In this document: one piece after another, positions 39,189 through 47,677 of the stretch
Layout: every line of letters starts with the position of its first letter
Position numbering within the stretch: position 1 is the stretch's first letter
Assembly (NCBI RefSeq): GCF_014205295.1
Contig: NZ_JACHNF010000001.1
Location: 4,154,001-4,218,000 of the forward strand
DNA: 64,000 nt
Reading direction: 5' to 3'
From: Kribbella solani
Lineage (GTDB): Bacteria; Actinomycetota; Actinomycetes; Propionibacteriales; Kribbellaceae
Translations under genes and position numbers: made by a program
The notes under the pieces: generated by a model
What the model was told of the DNA's origin: nothing
The model's database searches: none
What the model saw: the letters and a program-made list of their open reading frames with translations, nothing else

Positions 39189-40670
39189 CTAGCGCAGTGC
39201 GGCGCTGACGTCCGGCTGGGCGCCCAGCTGCGCGCGGAACACCAGTGAGGTGTTCAACGGCCACGCCGCGACCTCTGCCGTACTGTCCGAGTCAGGCTTC
39301 GCGGCAGGCATCAGCGTGACACCGGCCACCACGGTCCCCCGCGTCTGCTGCACCATCAGGTACGTCGCACGCGGCTGCGACGCGAACGCGATCTGCGTCG
39401 TCGCTCCACCCACTACGTCCAGCGCCCGCGTACTAAGCACCCGTCCGACCGCGTCCCGCAGCTCGAACTTCACGCTGCCGGTCTTCCCCGGTGCGGTCAC
39501 CTGCAGTACGGCCGGCTGCTGATGCGCCGGCAGCACCAGGTACGCCGGCCCGGTCAGTGCCTCGGCCGAGCCGATGGACGCGAAGTCGGTCTTCTTCGCA
39601 TCGGACATCCGCATCGAGGCGGTGACCGGCTGGTCCGACGTGATGGTGACGGCACTGGCGTCGCCGTGCAGGGTCGGGTCCATCACGAACGTACGCACCG
39701 AACCGGCTTCGATCAGCTCGGTCTCCAGGCCGGCGGGCTTGAACGACCCGTTCGGCCCGTTCACCGTCAGGCTGACCGTTGCCTGCAGGTCGCTGGGGTT
39801 CGCCACGGACAGAATGCGCAGCCCGGCGCCCGGTGCGGCCGCAGGTACGAACACCTTGGTCGCGGGCGGTGCGGACGGGTTCAGCCAGTCCACACCGGCC
39901 GGCTGAGTCCCGTTCGAAGCGTTGGAGCGTACTGCGGCTGCCACTCGTCCACCGGTCGACACCACGTGCAGGGCGACGTCCCGCAGGTTCGGCGTGACCT
40001 CCTTGAGGAACACCTCCGCGGTCCCGCGGGCAGGCACGACGATGCCGCGCGTCGCGGGCAGGTCCTGCGCACCGGTGCGCGCGTACACACTGACGTTGAC
40101 CTCGGCGTTGATGCTGTCCAGGTTGGTCAGCACCAGTACGTCGCGCCGGTCACTCGCACCGGACGCACCGACAAACCAGAAGTCCGCACCGGGCATCTGG
40201 CACGGGACGCTGGCCATACCGGCGTTCACCCCGTCCTTGGCGGTCGTCGTGGCCGTACCGACCGTGCCCGCGGCCAGCGGACCAGCACCTTGGATGGAGA
40301 GCGGTAGTGGCGCCTGGGTCGGCGTAGTCGAACCGATCTTGCCGCGTACGAGTAACGAGCCGGCTGGGGCGGAGGTGGTGGGCAGTGGCGTGATGGACAA
40401 CGGCTGCGAGGTACCGGAGGCACTTGGCGTGTCGTCGGGCAGCGTCGGCGACACCGCGTTCACCACGCTGGCCATCTTGCCGCCGGGAGCGAGCACTGGG
40501 CAGGCCAGCGCGGTCCGGTTCACGACAGTGCGCGATGGCTCGGTCACCGCGGCCTGGGCACGAGTGTCGGGTGACGCCGGGTCAGTGACTACGCCGAGGC
40601 CGGCCAGCGCGGCCATGGCGACGACAACGGCTCCGATGCGGAGCCGCGGGTCGGACAGCAACCGGCTCAC
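39189..40670 (-). CDS. DUF5719 family extracytoplasmic protein
   Basis: A 493-residue protein with an N-terminal signal anchor (about residues 10–27, RIGAVVVAMAALAGLGVV) and a long exported domain rich in beta strands, Ala, Thr and Val. It has two cysteines (C57 and one near 158) and no recognised active site. The start overlaps the stop of the large glycosyltransferase gene by four bases, so the two are co-translated. DUF5719 proteins accompany this glycosyltransferase in many actinobacteria, suggesting a role in processing or export of the same glycan. Confidence 0.85.
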   Translation of the reverse strand: MSRLLSDPRLRIGAVVVAMAALAGLGVVTDPASPDTRAQAAVTEPSRTVVNRTALACPVLAPGGKMASVVNAVSPTLPDDTPSASGTSQPLSITPLPTTSAPAGSLLVRGKIGSTTPTQAPLPLSIQGAGPLAAGTVGTATTTAKDGVNAGMASVPCQMPGADFWFVGASGASDRRDVLVLTNLDSINAEVNVSVYARTGAQDLPATRGIVVPARGTAEVFLKEVTPNLRDVALHVVSTGGRVAAAVRSNASNGTQPAGVDWLNPSAPPATKVFVPAAAPGAGLRILSVANPSDLQATVSLTVNGPNGSFKPAGLETELIEAGSVRTFVMDPTLHGDASAVTITSDQPVTASMRMSDAKKTDFASIGSAEALTGPAYLVLPAHQQPAVLQVTAPGKTGSVKFELRDAVGRVLSTRALDVVGGATTQIAFASQPRATYLMVQQTRGTVVAGVTLMPAAKPDSDSTAEVAAWPLNTSLVFRAQLGAQPDVSAALR

Positions 40671-43752: not shown

Positions 43753-44016
43753 TCAGACGGCCTTCTTCTTCAGCTTCCGGCGCTCCCGCTCCGACAGGCC
43801 GCCCCAGATCCCGAAGCGCTCGTCGTTCTGCAACGCGTACTCGAGGCACTCGCCCCGGACGTCACAGCCGAGGCAAACTTTCTTCGCCTCGCGGGTGGAA
43901 CCGCCCTTCTCCGGGAAGAAAGCCTCTGGATCGGTCTGGGCACACAGCGCCCTTTCCTGCCAGTTCGGCTCCTCCTCGATCGCCTCACCGTCGACAATCG
44001 CCATCAGCTCTGTCAC
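43753..44016 (-). CDS. whiB: WhiB family iron–sulfur transcription factor (WhiB/WhiB2 type)
   Basis: An 87-residue regulator. The [4Fe-4S] ligands are C25, C48, C51 and C57 (ALCAQTDPEAFFPEKGG … CLGCDVRGEC). The beta-turn motif GIWGG at 69–73 and a basic C-terminal helix (ERERRKLKKK) are present. These match WhiB of Streptomyces and WhiB2 of mycobacteria, which act with WhiA to control septation and cell division. The start is fixed at GTG 44016 by AGGAGG at 44029–44024, seven bases upstream; longer frames have no such site. The long upstream region suggests complex regulation. Confidence 0.95.
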   Translation of the reverse strand: MTELMAIVDGEAIEEEPNWQERALCAQTDPEAFFPEKGGSTREAKKVCLGCDVRGECLEYALQNDERFGIWGGLSERERRKLKKKAV

Positions 44017-44220
44017 GGTACGACCTCCTCGACCCTGTTCGTTCCCCTGTACATGTGGGTTTGCGGTCCACATGCCTGACCTCGTCCGTCCTGCGCTCTG
44101 CAACGGTCCCCGATACCGAGTGTCCAACGAACGACACGGTTGAAATTACATTCCTGCAATCCACGAAAGTCAAGCCGTGCTCTGCTATTGGGATCATCCG
44201 CAACATGCCCGCAAAAGAAC
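44017..44220. promoter_or_regulatory. whiB upstream region with an inverted repeat
   Basis: The gene-free stretch 44017–44332 serves as the whiB promoter region and the 3' region of the Gln-rich membrane protein gene. It contains CATGTGG-N9-CCACATG (44052–44074), a perfect 7-9-7 inverted repeat in the leader, and the pentamer GACAC at about 44131–44140 on either strand, a sequence recognised by WhiA in Streptomyces. A relatively AT-rich patch at 44140–44160 is the likely core promoter. No protein-coding frame is credible here. Confidence 0.45.
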
Positions 44221-44246
44221 GAGAGGCCTGTAGATACAGGCCTCTC
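44221..44246 (-). terminator. Intrinsic terminator of the Gln-rich membrane protein gene
   Basis: A perfect 12-bp stem (44221–44232 with 44235–44246) with a two-base centre is followed on the minus strand by GTTCTTTTG. This is one of the most canonical terminators in the window. It lies 87 bases after the gene's stop codon and also insulates the whiB promoter. Confidence 0.85.
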
Positions 44247-44332
44247 GCGCTGCGTGCCCACCCTCAAACCCGGTGCCGCCGGAATTTTCCCGACGGCCAC
44301 GGTAAAGGCTTGCTACTCGTGAAGTTGCCTTG

Positions 44333-45610
44333 TCAGGAAGGCTGGGACCACCAGCCCTGCTGACCCTGACCCGGCTGATTCGGGTCATTCTTGTCCTGGT
44401 CGGCGCGCTGGTCGACCCGGGTCTCGTCAGCCGATTCACCCTGCTGCTGCACGGGTTCCGCGGCCGGCTGCTGCTGCTCGGCTGCCGGAGTCTCCTCCTG
44501 CGGCCAGGCCTGCTCCTGCTGCTGGGCCTGCTGGGCCTGCTGGCCGTACTCCTGGCCATGCTGTTCGGCCTGAGCGGGCTGCTGAGCCTGCTGGTCGTAC
44601 TCCTGGCCGCTCCACTGCTGCTGGCCCTGGTCGGCGCCCCACTGCTGCTCCTGCGGCCACTGCTGGGCCTGCTGGCCATGCTGCCCCGGCTGACCCTGCT
44701 GGGCCGCGTCCTGGCCACCCCACTGCTGCTGGCCTTCGGAGCTCCACGCCTGCGTCGGCTCAGTGCCCTGACCCTCGGCGGACCAGGCCTGCTGACCCTG
44801 ATCAGCGCCCTGCGAAGCGGCGTGCTGACCGGAGTGCTCGTTCTCGGCCGCACCAGCGGACCACGCCTGCTGCTGGCCCTGGTCGCCCCACTGCTGTTCC
44901 TGCGGCCACTGCTGCTGGTCGCCCTGACCCGCCGCGTACCCGCCGGCCGCACCAGCCGCCGCGTACCCGCCGTATTGGCCCTGACCCTGCTCGTACTGGC
45001 CGCCGTACTGCTGGCCCTGCTGGCCGTAGCCCTGCTGACCCTGCTGACCGTAGCCCTGCTGGCCCTGCGCATAGCCCTGCTGCTGACCGTACGGAGCGGT
45101 CTGGCCGTACTGCTCGCCCGACTGGCCGTGCTGTCCCTGCTGCTGGAACTGACCCGGCTTCGGCGCCCGCACCGGCGCCGGCAGCGCCTGGAAGGTCTTC
45201 AGGATGTACAGACCGGCCGCGCCGTACAGTGCCAGGCCACCGATCGAGTAGATGAACCCGACGATCTTCATACCGGCGGTGCTGCTCTCGTTGAAACCGG
45301 CGAACGCGGCGATCAGCCCGACCAGCGCGGTCACACCGGTGATGACGAGGGCGGCGAGCGCGACGGTCCGCGCGTTCGGGGTCCGCTCCCCTTCGTTCAC
45401 CAGCCAGACGGAGCCGACCAGCGCTAGGACGATCACCAGGCCCGACACCGTGGTCGGGGTGATGACGCCTTGGACGATGCTGGCCGCGGCGGTGAATCCG
45501 GCACCGCCGACGAACAGCCGGATCAGCGAGGCCAGTGCGAGCAGGCCGGCGAATGCGAGCAAGATGTACGCGACCGGCTCTTTGAGCTTCTTGGTTGCGT
45601 CGGTGACCAC
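44333..45610 (-). CDS. Four-helix membrane protein with very long Gln-rich, prion-like tail
   Basis: A 425-residue protein. Residues 1–140 contain four predicted helices (about 12–34, 55–72, 83–105 and 113–138). From residue 150 to the C-terminus the chain is a disordered tail made mostly of Gln, Gly, Ala, Tyr and Trp, with repeats such as GYGQQGQQGYGQQGQQYGG and recurring WPQEQQWG and QAWS units. The Tyr/Gly/Gln part resembles eukaryotic phase-separating domains. I chose GTG at 45610 because GAGGAG precedes it. It lies between whiB and the F420 gene fbiA, divergent from the latter. Function unknown; the tail should be cytoplasmic if the N-terminus is. Confidence 0.88.
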   Translation of the reverse strand: MVTDATKKLKEPVAYILLAFAGLLALASLIRLFVGGAGFTAAASIVQGVITPTTVSGLVIVLALVGSVWLVNEGERTPNARTVALAALVITGVTALVGLIAAFAGFNESSTAGMKIVGFIYSIGGLALYGAAGLYILKTFQALPAPVRAPKPGQFQQQGQHGQSGEQYGQTAPYGQQQGYAQGQQGYGQQGQQGYGQQGQQYGGQYEQGQGQYGGYAAAGAAGGYAAGQGDQQQWPQEQQWGDQGQQQAWSAGAAENEHSGQHAASQGADQGQQAWSAEGQGTEPTQAWSSEGQQQWGGQDAAQQGQPGQHGQQAQQWPQEQQWGADQGQQQWSGQEYDQQAQQPAQAEQHGQEYGQQAQQAQQQEQAWPQEETPAAEQQQPAAEPVQQQGESADETRVDQRADQDKNDPNQPGQGQQGWWSQPS

Positions 45611-45725
45611 GAGGGCTCCTCGGATGTTGGGGGGCCGTACAACTGAGCTGTGCGGATGCTTCTGACCCACCGCAGCATAGTCGTGCGGTGGTCCGCCTCA
45701 TTGACGACTCGTGCAGACTCTTCCC

Positions 45726-46703
45726 ATGCGATGCACAGTGCTTGCCGGCGGTATCGGCGGTTCCAGCTTCCTCCGCGGCCTGATCAAGGCCCGGCCGGAC
45801 GCCGAGATCACGGTCGTGGGGAACACCGCGGACGACATCACCCTGTTCGGTCTGCGGGTCTGCCCGGACCTCGACACCGTGATGTACACGCTCGGTGGCG
45901 GGATCTCCGAGGAACGGAAATGGGGCCGGGAGGACGAGACCTGGGTGATCAAGGAGGAGCTCGCCGAGTACGGCGTGGAGCCGACCTGGTTCGGGCTCGG
46001 CGACCGGGACGTGGCCACCCACCTGGTCCGTACGCAGATGCTGGACGCCGGCTACAGCCTCAGCGCGGTCACCGAGGCCCTTTGCAGCCGCTGGAAGCTG
46101 CCGGTCCGGCTGCTGCCGATGAGTGACGACCGGATCGAGACGCACGTAGTAGTGGACGACCCGGAACAGCCCGGGAAGCGGAAGGCCATTCACTTCCAGG
46201 AGTACTGGGTCCGGTACCACGCCGAGGTCCCGGCGCATCAGATCGTTGCCGTTGGTCAGGACAAGGCCAAGCCGGCGCCTGGCGTACTGGAGGCGATCGC
46301 TGACTGCGACGTACTGATCGTGCCGCCGTCCAACCCGGTCGTGTCGGTCGGCACGATCCTCGGCGTACCAGGGGTGCGCGACGCCGTACGCGAAACGGCC
46401 GCACCGGTGATCGGACTGTCACCGATCATCGGCACCGGACCGGTCCGCGGCATGGCCGACAAGGTGCTCGCCACCGTCGGAGTGGCCGCCACCGCGTCGG
46501 CAGTGGCCCGGTACTACGGTTCGCGCGCGTCCGGTGGCGTACTGGACGGCTGGCTGATCGACAGTTCGGACGCGATGCAGGCGGATTCGATCGCCGGTGC
46601 CGGAATTCACGTCCAGGCGGTGCCGTTGTGGATGACGGACGAGACCACCACCGCCGCGATGGCTGACGCGGCACTGACCCTCGCGGAGGCCGTGCGGCGA
46701 TGA
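45726..46703 (+). CDS. fbiA: 2-phospho-L-lactate transferase (F420 biosynthesis)
   Basis: A 325-residue CofD/FbiA enzyme that transfers the phosphoenolpyruvate or lactate moiety onto the deazaflavin FO, making (dehydro-)F420-0. The N-terminal nucleotide-binding motif is [35 protein letters not shown] and the C-terminal [19 protein letters not shown] are diagnostic. I start it at ATG 45726 (MRCTVLAGG), where the family begins; there is no ribosome site, so it may be leaderless. The stop overlaps fbiB by four bases. Confidence 0.95.
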
Positions 46704-47677
46704 GGAAACACCTGGAGATCTTCCCGGTGACGGGACTGCCCGAAGTAGTGGCCGGCCAGGACCTGGCCGCGCTGATCGCGGACGGTACCGACCTGCGCGA
46801 CGGCGACGTCGTCTCGGTGACCTCGAAGATCGTCAGCAAGGCCGAGGGCAGGCTGACGTACGGGACCCGTCGCGAAGCCGTCGACGCCGAGCTCGTCCGG
46901 GTCGTCGCGCACCGCGGCGACACCCGGATCGTGCAGACCCGGCACGGCCTGGTGATGGCGGCCGCCGGGACCGATACGTCGAACACCGCGCCCGGAACGG
47001 TCCTGCTGCTGCCGGTCGACCCGGACGCGTCCGCGCGGCAACTGCGCGCGGCGCTGAAGGAGCGGTACGACGTCAACGTCGGCATCGTCATCACCGACAC
47101 CCTCGGCCGGCCGTGGCGCAACGGCCAGACGGACCTGGCGATCGGCGCCGCGGGCGTACGCGTCGTCGAGGACCTGCGCGGTACGACGGACAGCCACGGC
47201 AACGTACTTTCCGTCACCGAGCCCGCGCTCGCGGACGAGATCGCCAGCGCCAGTGAACTCGTCAAGGGCAAGGCCGATGGCGTACCGGTTGCCGTACTGC
47301 GCGGTCTTGACGACGCGGTGCTTGCGGTCGGCGAACACGGTCCGGGCGCTCGGGCGCTCGTACGCGACGCCGAGCGCGACATGTTCAGTTTGGGTACGCG
47401 GGAGGCGGCGCGGGCCGCCGTACTGGCCCGGAAGGCACCGGATGGGCCGCGGGAGGCCGATCCGGCGCTCTGGTCCGGGTTGCTGAACGAGGTCGAAGGG
47501 GTTCGGTTGTCGGTTGTTGACAACGCTGTCTCGGTGTTCGGCGACGAACCCGTCACGGTTGGGGTGGTGGCGGAGAAGCTGGCGGTGCTGCTGCACGCGG
47601 AGGGGTACGGCGTGACCGTACGGACCGGGCCGGGCAATGAGGCGACGGTCACGTTCGGCTCACGGTCTGCCCGGTAG
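46700..47677 (+). CDS. fbiB: F420-0:gamma-glutamyl ligase, short form without nitroreductase domain
   Basis: A 325-residue CofE-type ligase that adds glutamates to F420-0. The ligase core ([42 protein letters not shown]) fills residues 1–245. Actinobacterial FbiB usually has a further FMN-binding nitroreductase domain of about 200 residues that reduces dehydro-F420-0. Here the C-terminus is only about 80 residues ([20 protein letters not shown]…) and does not look like a nitroreductase. The gene is co-translated with fbiA. The reduction step must be done by another protein or not at all. Confidence 0.9.

Follow-up and report, generated by a model that had tools for sequence, protein, structure and literature searches.

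The window analyzed here is the whole stretch of 64,000 nucleotides of the Kribbella solani genome (contig NZ_JACHNF010000001.1, positions 4,154,001 to 4,218,000), and coordinates refer to its first letter. An open reading frame on the minus strand starts with a GTG codon at position 45610 and ends with a stop codon at positions 44333-44335, affording a product of 425 residues with four membrane helices and a long C-terminal tail; the coordinates in a preliminary description of this DNA were correct. The GTG start is common to the relatives from 38 of 38 Kribbella genomes. A whiB gene lies 3' of the gene on the same strand, and cofD, followed by a cofE-type gene, leads off rightward. Profile matches to WhiB (PF02467), CofD, and a CofE-type ligase thus confirmed the whiB and F420 neighbors reported previously. 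The features of the locus are as follows.

43753..44127, minus strand: WhiB-type regulator (PF02467, E = 6e-27), given as the longest open reading frame, whose coordinates may overstate the start
44219..44248, minus strand: terminator-like hairpin (13 pairs, loop of 4) between the gene and whiB
44333..45610, minus strand: gene for the Gln-rich-tail membrane protein (GTG start, 425 aa, with a tail rich in Gln, Gly, Trp, and Tyr after four membrane helices)
44336..45157, minus strand: predicted-disordered tail rich in Gln, Gly, and Ala, aa 152-425, with 12 Trp and 12 Tyr
44336..44356, minus strand: C-terminal GWWSQPS, aa 419-425, in 38/38 Kribbella
44414..44428, minus strand: DETRV, aa 395-399 (D[AE]TR[VI] in 38/38, Thr397 conserved at 100%), a candidate Ser/Thr-kinase or FHA site
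44639..44662, minus strand: second WPQE box, QWPQEQQW, aa 317-324
44744..44761, minus strand: EPTQxW box, aa 284-289 (36/38, Thr286 conserved at 97%)
44888..44911, minus strand: first WPQE box, QWPQEQQW, aa 234-241 (QWPQE in 37/38)
45197..45538, minus strand: exchanged or highly diverged core segment, aa 25-138 (sliding identity, dN/dS, AU test)
45572..45610, minus strand: conserved lysine-rich N terminus, aa 1-13, taken as cytoplasmic (pS 0.013, 16 species)
45711..46703, plus strand: CofD (FbiA), divergent neighbor (TIGR01819, 392 bits)
46700..47677, plus strand: CofE-type F420 ligase (PF01996, TIGR01916)

The 13-pair hairpin that follows the gene carries a T-rich tail. Because this terminator-like structure precedes whiB, the gene was read as its own transcription unit, and an operon with whiB was ruled out on the same ground. 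A scan for sigma-70 promoters found none. About 115 bases 5' of the gene are strongly conserved across the genus together with the first codons, pS for codons 1-13 being 0.013 in 16 species versus 0.19 to 0.37 in most other parts of the gene and 0.135 in the first transmembrane helix (TM1). This conserved start region (45572-45726), which takes in the DNA between the gene and cofD, may hold a regulatory element. Elsewhere in the window, two genes below whiB, a DUF5719 protein (39189-40670) is encoded 3' of a 976-residue glycosyltransferase-like membrane protein.

Profile searches with the 425-residue protein revealed no Pfam family at an E value of 1 or below and no NCBIfam family. When 16 members of the family were considered, single weak matches were scattered over 12 other Pfam families, none of them common. 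A literature search of openly readable papers retrieved none that described the gene. By the searches of the present analysis, the family is new and without description. The gene is a real, conserved membrane protein gene of Kribbella and related soil actinomycetes.

Hydropathy analysis placed the membrane segments in a cluster at aa 9-137. AlphaFold modeling of aa 1-160 revealed long helices at aa 5-34, 55-72, 78-106, and 112-142 and a short one at aa 39-50, with a pLDDT of 80 for the best model and of 48 to 60 for the other four. Modeling of the full-length protein (mean pLDDT of 45.7) showed no strand, and the tail was nearly devoid of helix, with a pLDDT of ~35 to 51; since confidence was also low for the core in the same run (~46 to 60), the model lends weak support to a disordered tail. 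Hydropathy, modeling, and composition thus bore out the four helices and the long polar, aromatic-studded tail of the preliminary description, disorder being a prediction. Foldseek searches with the helix core retrieved no trustworthy match among solved structures (best E value of 0.35, none below 0.001), and synaptogyrin (E = 0.54) was distrusted as a fold match. A sequence search of solved structures returned one chain (E = 0.18). With VIA-align, the highest Z score was 11.8, for unrelated soluble helical bundles, which is below the guide value of ~13 for bundles.

The family was found in all 38 Kribbella genomes. Searching the order produced a match in 49 of 196 genomes, including these 38, and a core-profile search of the class produced matches in at least 48 of 394 genomes, a lower bound given that up to nine candidates were scored per genome. 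The gene order CofD, 425-residue-type protein, WhiB was clear in 48 of the 49 loci compared in the order, the exception being L043, where the WhiB match is partial and lies at the edge of the locus. Among the 27 class loci compared, which exclude 18 of the 48 core-profile matches, cofD was divergent and adjacent in every case, and WhiB was encoded within the available flank in 17. Of the remaining 10 flanks, most stop in or soon after the tail; at L083, ~1 kb 3' of the gene is devoid of whiB. CofD itself was detected in 24 of 25 further genomes, a mixture with and without the family. At 14 cofD loci in which no relative was detected, the position was accounted for by a directly adjoining whiB (7 loci), a cupin-like gene (4 loci), another arrangement (2 loci), or the locus L124. 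The latter encodes, 5' of cofD, a syntenic four-helix protein whose short tail has neither a Gln-rich stretch nor a terminal WW; lacking the motifs, this membrane protein is probably a reduced relative. A protein with a longer tail and with WWSAPRQ is encoded at L052, from a genome that shares the coded genus of L124. In Streptomyces-like genomes (family f6, a name that we infer), no four-helix gene was seen near cofD at any of four loci, and a cupin-like gene, which we take to be cysteine-dioxygenase-like, was located between whiB and cofD or 5' of cofD at all four. Of the 38 Kribbella genes, 15 match genes of named records letter for letter, and 14 of these records are titled Kribbella. The remaining record, titled Streptomyces sp. 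SID13031 (L131), carries a Kribbella-type gene identical to that of L032 and is probably a mislabeled Kribbella. A paralogue in Kribbella was considered for a second weak match present in 4 of the 38 genomes and rejected, the one match that was read (L062) being ABC permease-like and taken as chance.

The tail (aa 152-425, 274 residues) contains 93 Gln (33.9%), 48 Gly, 35 Ala, 12 Tyr, and 12 Trp residues, with 3 Lys plus Arg, 30 Asp plus Glu, and only 3 Asn. Chance was excluded as the source of the Gln-rich tail by binomial probabilities of 9e-51 against a 5% background and of 1e-65 against the 3.35% Gln of the host genome, as sampled from 609 genes picked by a script in forty 20-kb stretches. 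A 100-residue window with at least 30% Gln was present in 1 of these 609 genes (41%, the next value being 16%), in comparison to 42% for the 425-residue protein. L166:1481-3205 of the same genome encodes a 100-residue window with 41% Gln, a Gln-, Gly-, and Pro-rich N-terminal part, and one hydrophobic segment. N/Q-rich disordered proteins number 4.3 per bacterial proteome, or 0.15% of proteins, in the part of the survey available to us (PMC6400439). Together with the sampled genes, this rate indicates that the tail is unusual per protein and not singular, so that the rarity attributed to it by the preliminary description holds per protein but not per genome.

The tails encoded in all 38 Kribbella genomes comprise 239 to 312 residues, with 24 to 34% Gln and 12 to 15 Trp residues each. 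Conservation across the 38 genes was 0.95 to 1.00 at 12 of 12 Trp positions, with means of 0.75 for Tyr, 0.59 for Gly, 0.58 for Gln, and 0.54 for Ala. None of 20,000 random sets reached the Trp value against a tail mean of 0.58 (last 7 residues left aside), a contrast possibly aided by the aligner, which favors Trp-Trp matches. Independently of any alignment, 36 of the 38 proteins show the E[PA]TQxW box with a WPQE box on either side. Of 5000 shuffles, 99.3% had a less even spacing of aromatic residues than the 425-residue protein has. The 14-base pattern TGGTGGTCNCARCC is present a single time in the 7.85-Mb genome, at the site of the C-terminal GWWSQPS. Beyond the genus, the C terminus is WWSQPPR in 8 of 8 proteins of family f4 and WW[ST] in the three f2/f3 relatives found by sequence (3/3). 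In families f72 and f89, W[WY] is located near the C terminus of 18 of 21 complete proteins (6 of 27 were cut at the locus end, and L081 is interrupted by a run of N) and is missing from L083 and L102. Gln content outside the genus ranges from 8 to 38%. Since Trp residues and motifs are conserved and Gln drifts, evolution keeps the aromatic residues and the short motifs over the glutamines. The median dN/dS of the tail was 0.19 to 0.22 in 47 pairs of close species; judged from these codon comparisons, the tail is under purifying selection. Because its Trp residues hold constant amid the drift of the rest, the tail is probably a functional arm for docking and not an accident of repeats. The preliminary description had viewed tail loss in homologues and variable glutamines as the marks of mere repeat expansion. 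Tails were retained in 38/38 Kribbella and, as low-complexity sequence, in other families, with the short tail of L124 as the exception. For the most part, these observations do not refute the preliminary reading, even though Gln falls to 8% in one distant relative.

A mycobacterial protein of comparable layout offers the closest functional analogy. Rv0954 has four transmembrane helices and a Pro/Gln-rich cytoplasmic tail, gathers at mid-cell, has LamA, PbpA, and PknH as partners, is phosphorylated at four C-terminal sites, and is encoded in an operon with perM; in the part of that study available to us, deletion of rv0954 caused no apparent division phenotype, and phospho-mutants were still septal (PMC8093794). 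The same part of the study discusses E. coli ZipA, likewise a membrane protein, whose Pro/Gln-rich cytoplasmic linker is presumed to extend to a division protein (PMC8093794). Rv0954 and MSMEG_5518 share with the 425-residue protein four helices and a long, low-complexity, Gln-rich C-terminal tail, and the Thr/Ser residues phosphorylated in the tail of Rv0954 have a parallel in the conserved Thr397 and Thr286. ZipA crosses the membrane with a single helix and has a folded domain that binds FtsZ, features not seen in the Kribbella protein.

We propose, at a probability of roughly 0.5, that the 425-residue protein is a membrane-anchored docking scaffold of the actinomycete envelope. The four helices would anchor the tail, with both termini in the cytoplasm, as suggested by the lysine-rich N terminus, the charged inner loop, and the even number of helices. 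The tail would act as a flexible arm in which Trp and Tyr serve as stickers and Gln, Gly, and Ala as spacers, and the WPQE, EPTQxW, and WWSQPS motifs, above all the C-terminal WW, would dock partner proteins. Phosphorylation of Thr397 by a Ser/Thr kinase could tune this docking. The outcome would be a cluster of proteins under the membrane at sites of growth or division, as proposed for Rv0954. By this analogy, a septal location is plausible. The preliminary description had derived a role at the septum or growth zone from the adjacency of whiB, an argument that is weak because the hairpin separates the two units and because whiB directly adjoins cofD in 7 of the 14 loci without a relative; its reading of four helices and a long, polar, aromatic-studded tail, here predicted to be disordered, is supported. 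The docking scaffold proposal is weakened by the absence of detectable homology to Rv0954, by the missing division phenotype of the rv0954 deletion and the septal phospho-mutants, by the low confidence of the full-length model even in the core, by the short tail of L124, and by the lack of W[WY] in L083 and L102. It also leaves unexplained the higher divergence of the core, which a mere anchor would not predict.

This divergence was most pronounced in L024 (K. soli, L141) and L025 (G029), which are nearest to each other by CofD (dN 0.005, dS 0.057) and have similar tails (dN 0.027, dS 0.129), whereas their cores (aa 25-138; dN 0.331, dS 0.515) are as distant as those of unrelated species. In 60-base windows, identity fell to 62 to 82% in the core (60 to 82% for close species of the clade), in comparison to 87 to 100% in the tail and 88 to 100% upstream; a further drop, to 62%, lies well 3' of the gene, at the margin past whiB. 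One core type is common to L024 and L030 (K. pratensis VKM Ac-2574), and a second type is common to L025, L031, and L034 (Kribbella sp. VKM Ac-2569). The clade of these five species has an SH-aLRT of 100 in both the tail and the CofD trees, and an AU test rejected it on the core data (p 9.7e-8), for a group picked after the distances had been seen. The cores of L024 and L030 are closer to that of L017 (dS of 0.22 and 0.18) than their CofD sequences are (dS of 0.33 and 0.37). The core dS exceeded both the CofD and the tail dS by a factor of more than 1.8 in 6 of 47 close pairs, all formed by these five species. As the six pairs fall in one clade, they point to one or two exchange events. On these comparisons, made with one genome per species, the core is exchanged by recombination in one Kribbella clade; in the rest of the genus it simply evolves fast. 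Allele classes were defined by core dN, which renders the contrast between dN/dS within and between classes partly circular. In an alignment of 132 kb from two genomes, the core was the deepest of three isolated low-identity stretches (minimum of 0.72, the others at 0.75 and 0.80), and seven more valleys all lay in one generally divergent block. An isolated 75% stretch of G029 relative to G023 (C1, ~3895920-3896610, L188) is in or beside a gene that is presumably FAD-oxidoreductase-like.

Variation within the core peaks outside the membrane. The two outer loops had mean entropies of 1.23 and 1.26, compared with 0.45 for the inner loop and 0.01 for the N terminus, and pN/pS in a clade of 16 species was 0.71 and 0.69 in the outer loops, 0.59 to 0.68 in TM2 to TM4, 0.44 in TM1, and 0.13 in the inner loop. 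An independent pair from family f72, L093 and L095, shows dips to 67% and 55% identity near the two outer loops. This pattern hints, at the level of sequence, at selection on the outward face by phage, kin, or a contact partner, and it may also reflect relaxed constraint plus chance recombination. Accordingly, the outward face could be a polymorphic recognition end (a phage receptor, a determinant of contact or kin recognition, or a target of toxins or antibiotic peptides), kept diverse by selection and swapped between species, with the constant tail relaying or clustering inside. The unrelated-looking cores of L024 and L025 beside near-identical CofD and tail sequences, the AU test, the affinity of the L024 and L030 cores for L017, the outer-loop peaks, and the second pair all favor recognition, which we nonetheless consider unlikely. 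The strict pairs (6/47) reflect one or two events in a single clade, core dN/dS is below 1, and the transmembrane helices vary nearly as much as the loops, as relaxed constraint could also achieve. Furthermore, the core evolves no faster than CofD in family f4 (L047-L049), only one of five f72 pairs shows clear dips, the four others being weak or without any, and the two other isolated low-identity stretches in the 132 kb indicate that the core is not unique.

Recognition and docking could also be combined, the core providing a swappable outward identity or receptor module and the Trp-studded tail condensing upon contact with a partner (hypha, phage, or peptide), as a counterpart of allorecognition joined to a prion-like domain; we regard this combination as distinctly unlikely. 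Known systems offer partial parallels. Mid (Msmeg0070) of M. smegmatis is a polymorphic self-identity protein whose identity function was established genetically; like the Kribbella protein, it is an actinobacterial membrane protein that is highly polymorphic among close relatives and has a low-complexity part, Pro-rich in Mid. In the part of the source available to us, Mid differs in having one predicted membrane segment and an esx1 locus, whereas the Kribbella variation was compared between species (PMC9040860). TraA of myxobacteria likewise joins a variable recognition domain to a constant part. It is an outer-surface receptor of a Gram-negative bacterium, unlike the Kribbella protein. A variable domain exchanged among otherwise close genomes, as in proteins of the Mid and TraA type, was here encountered between species of one clade.

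If the 425-residue protein belonged, as a divergent member, to the Rv0954 (DUF5336) family, the shared layout of four helices and a low-complexity tail would be explained; the DUF5336 protein of G245 (L069) likewise has a tail rich in Gln, Tyr, and Gly and ends near DATRAF. We consider such descent very doubtful. The 425-residue protein has no match to PF17270, which in a search of the host genome gave only four weak matches elsewhere (E values of 0.01 to 0.6), and profile-profile comparison of DUF5336 with the family returned a probability of 1.1%; these results, together with the different gene neighborhoods (the perM operon versus the whiB-cofD location), led us to reject assignment to DUF5336, which the sequence does not support. 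The DUF5336 tails examined contain neither WPQE nor a terminal WW, unlike the Kribbella protein. A DUF6350 gene, which we take to be the perM homologue, is located ~270 kb away, and no gene for a four-helix tailed protein was found between it and the presumed sucD. DUF5336 was detected in 8 of 198 genomes of the phylum and in none of 46 genomes containing the 425-residue family; this mutual exclusion would favor membership, but the controls of the search were also silent, leaving the absence unproven.

Composition and predicted disorder raise the further possibility, already voiced in the preliminary description, that the protein assembles at the membrane in a prion-like or amyloid-like manner, which appears highly improbable. 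The tail is predicted to be unstructured in the full-length model, and its Gln bias (9e-51 by our binomial test, background of 0.05) is far past the threshold of 1e-10 used with fLPS for bacterial N/Q-rich disordered proteins, with which it shares a Gln-biased region, here predicted to be disordered (PMC6400439, as partially available). The Kribbella protein is, unlike the proteins described there, membrane anchored, Trp studded, and endowed with invariant short motifs. Only 3 Asn residues are present in the tail, and a sticker-spacer arm accounts no less well for the conserved Trp residues at regular intervals, the Gly residues, and the 30 acidic residues. Neutral expansion of CAG/GGC repeats in an ordinary membrane protein, suggested by CAG in 93 of 95 Gln codons, by short imperfect tandem arrays of 9 to 24 nt in the tail DNA, by tail lengths of 239 to 312 residues in the genus, and by the 8% Gln of a distant relative, is largely refuted and, as a sole cause, was rejected in view of conserved Trp residues and box order, an invariant C terminus, purifying selection (tail dN/dS of ~0.2 in close pairs), and retention of the tail in 38/38 Kribbella species.

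The locus thus reveals a single-copy family without a name, usually with whiB on one side and F420 genes on the other in several actinomycete families. A four-helix core, selected aromatic residues and motifs in a low-complexity tail, and a core exchanged within Kribbella are rarely joined in one protein. If recognition were the function of the core, the family might open the study of how filamentous actinomycetes recognize self or phage. As a docking scaffold, it would be a candidate functional counterpart, outside mycobacteria, of a mycobacterial divisome protein. It also offers a tractable natural system in which to test the sticker-and-spacer concept on a membrane protein from bacteria.
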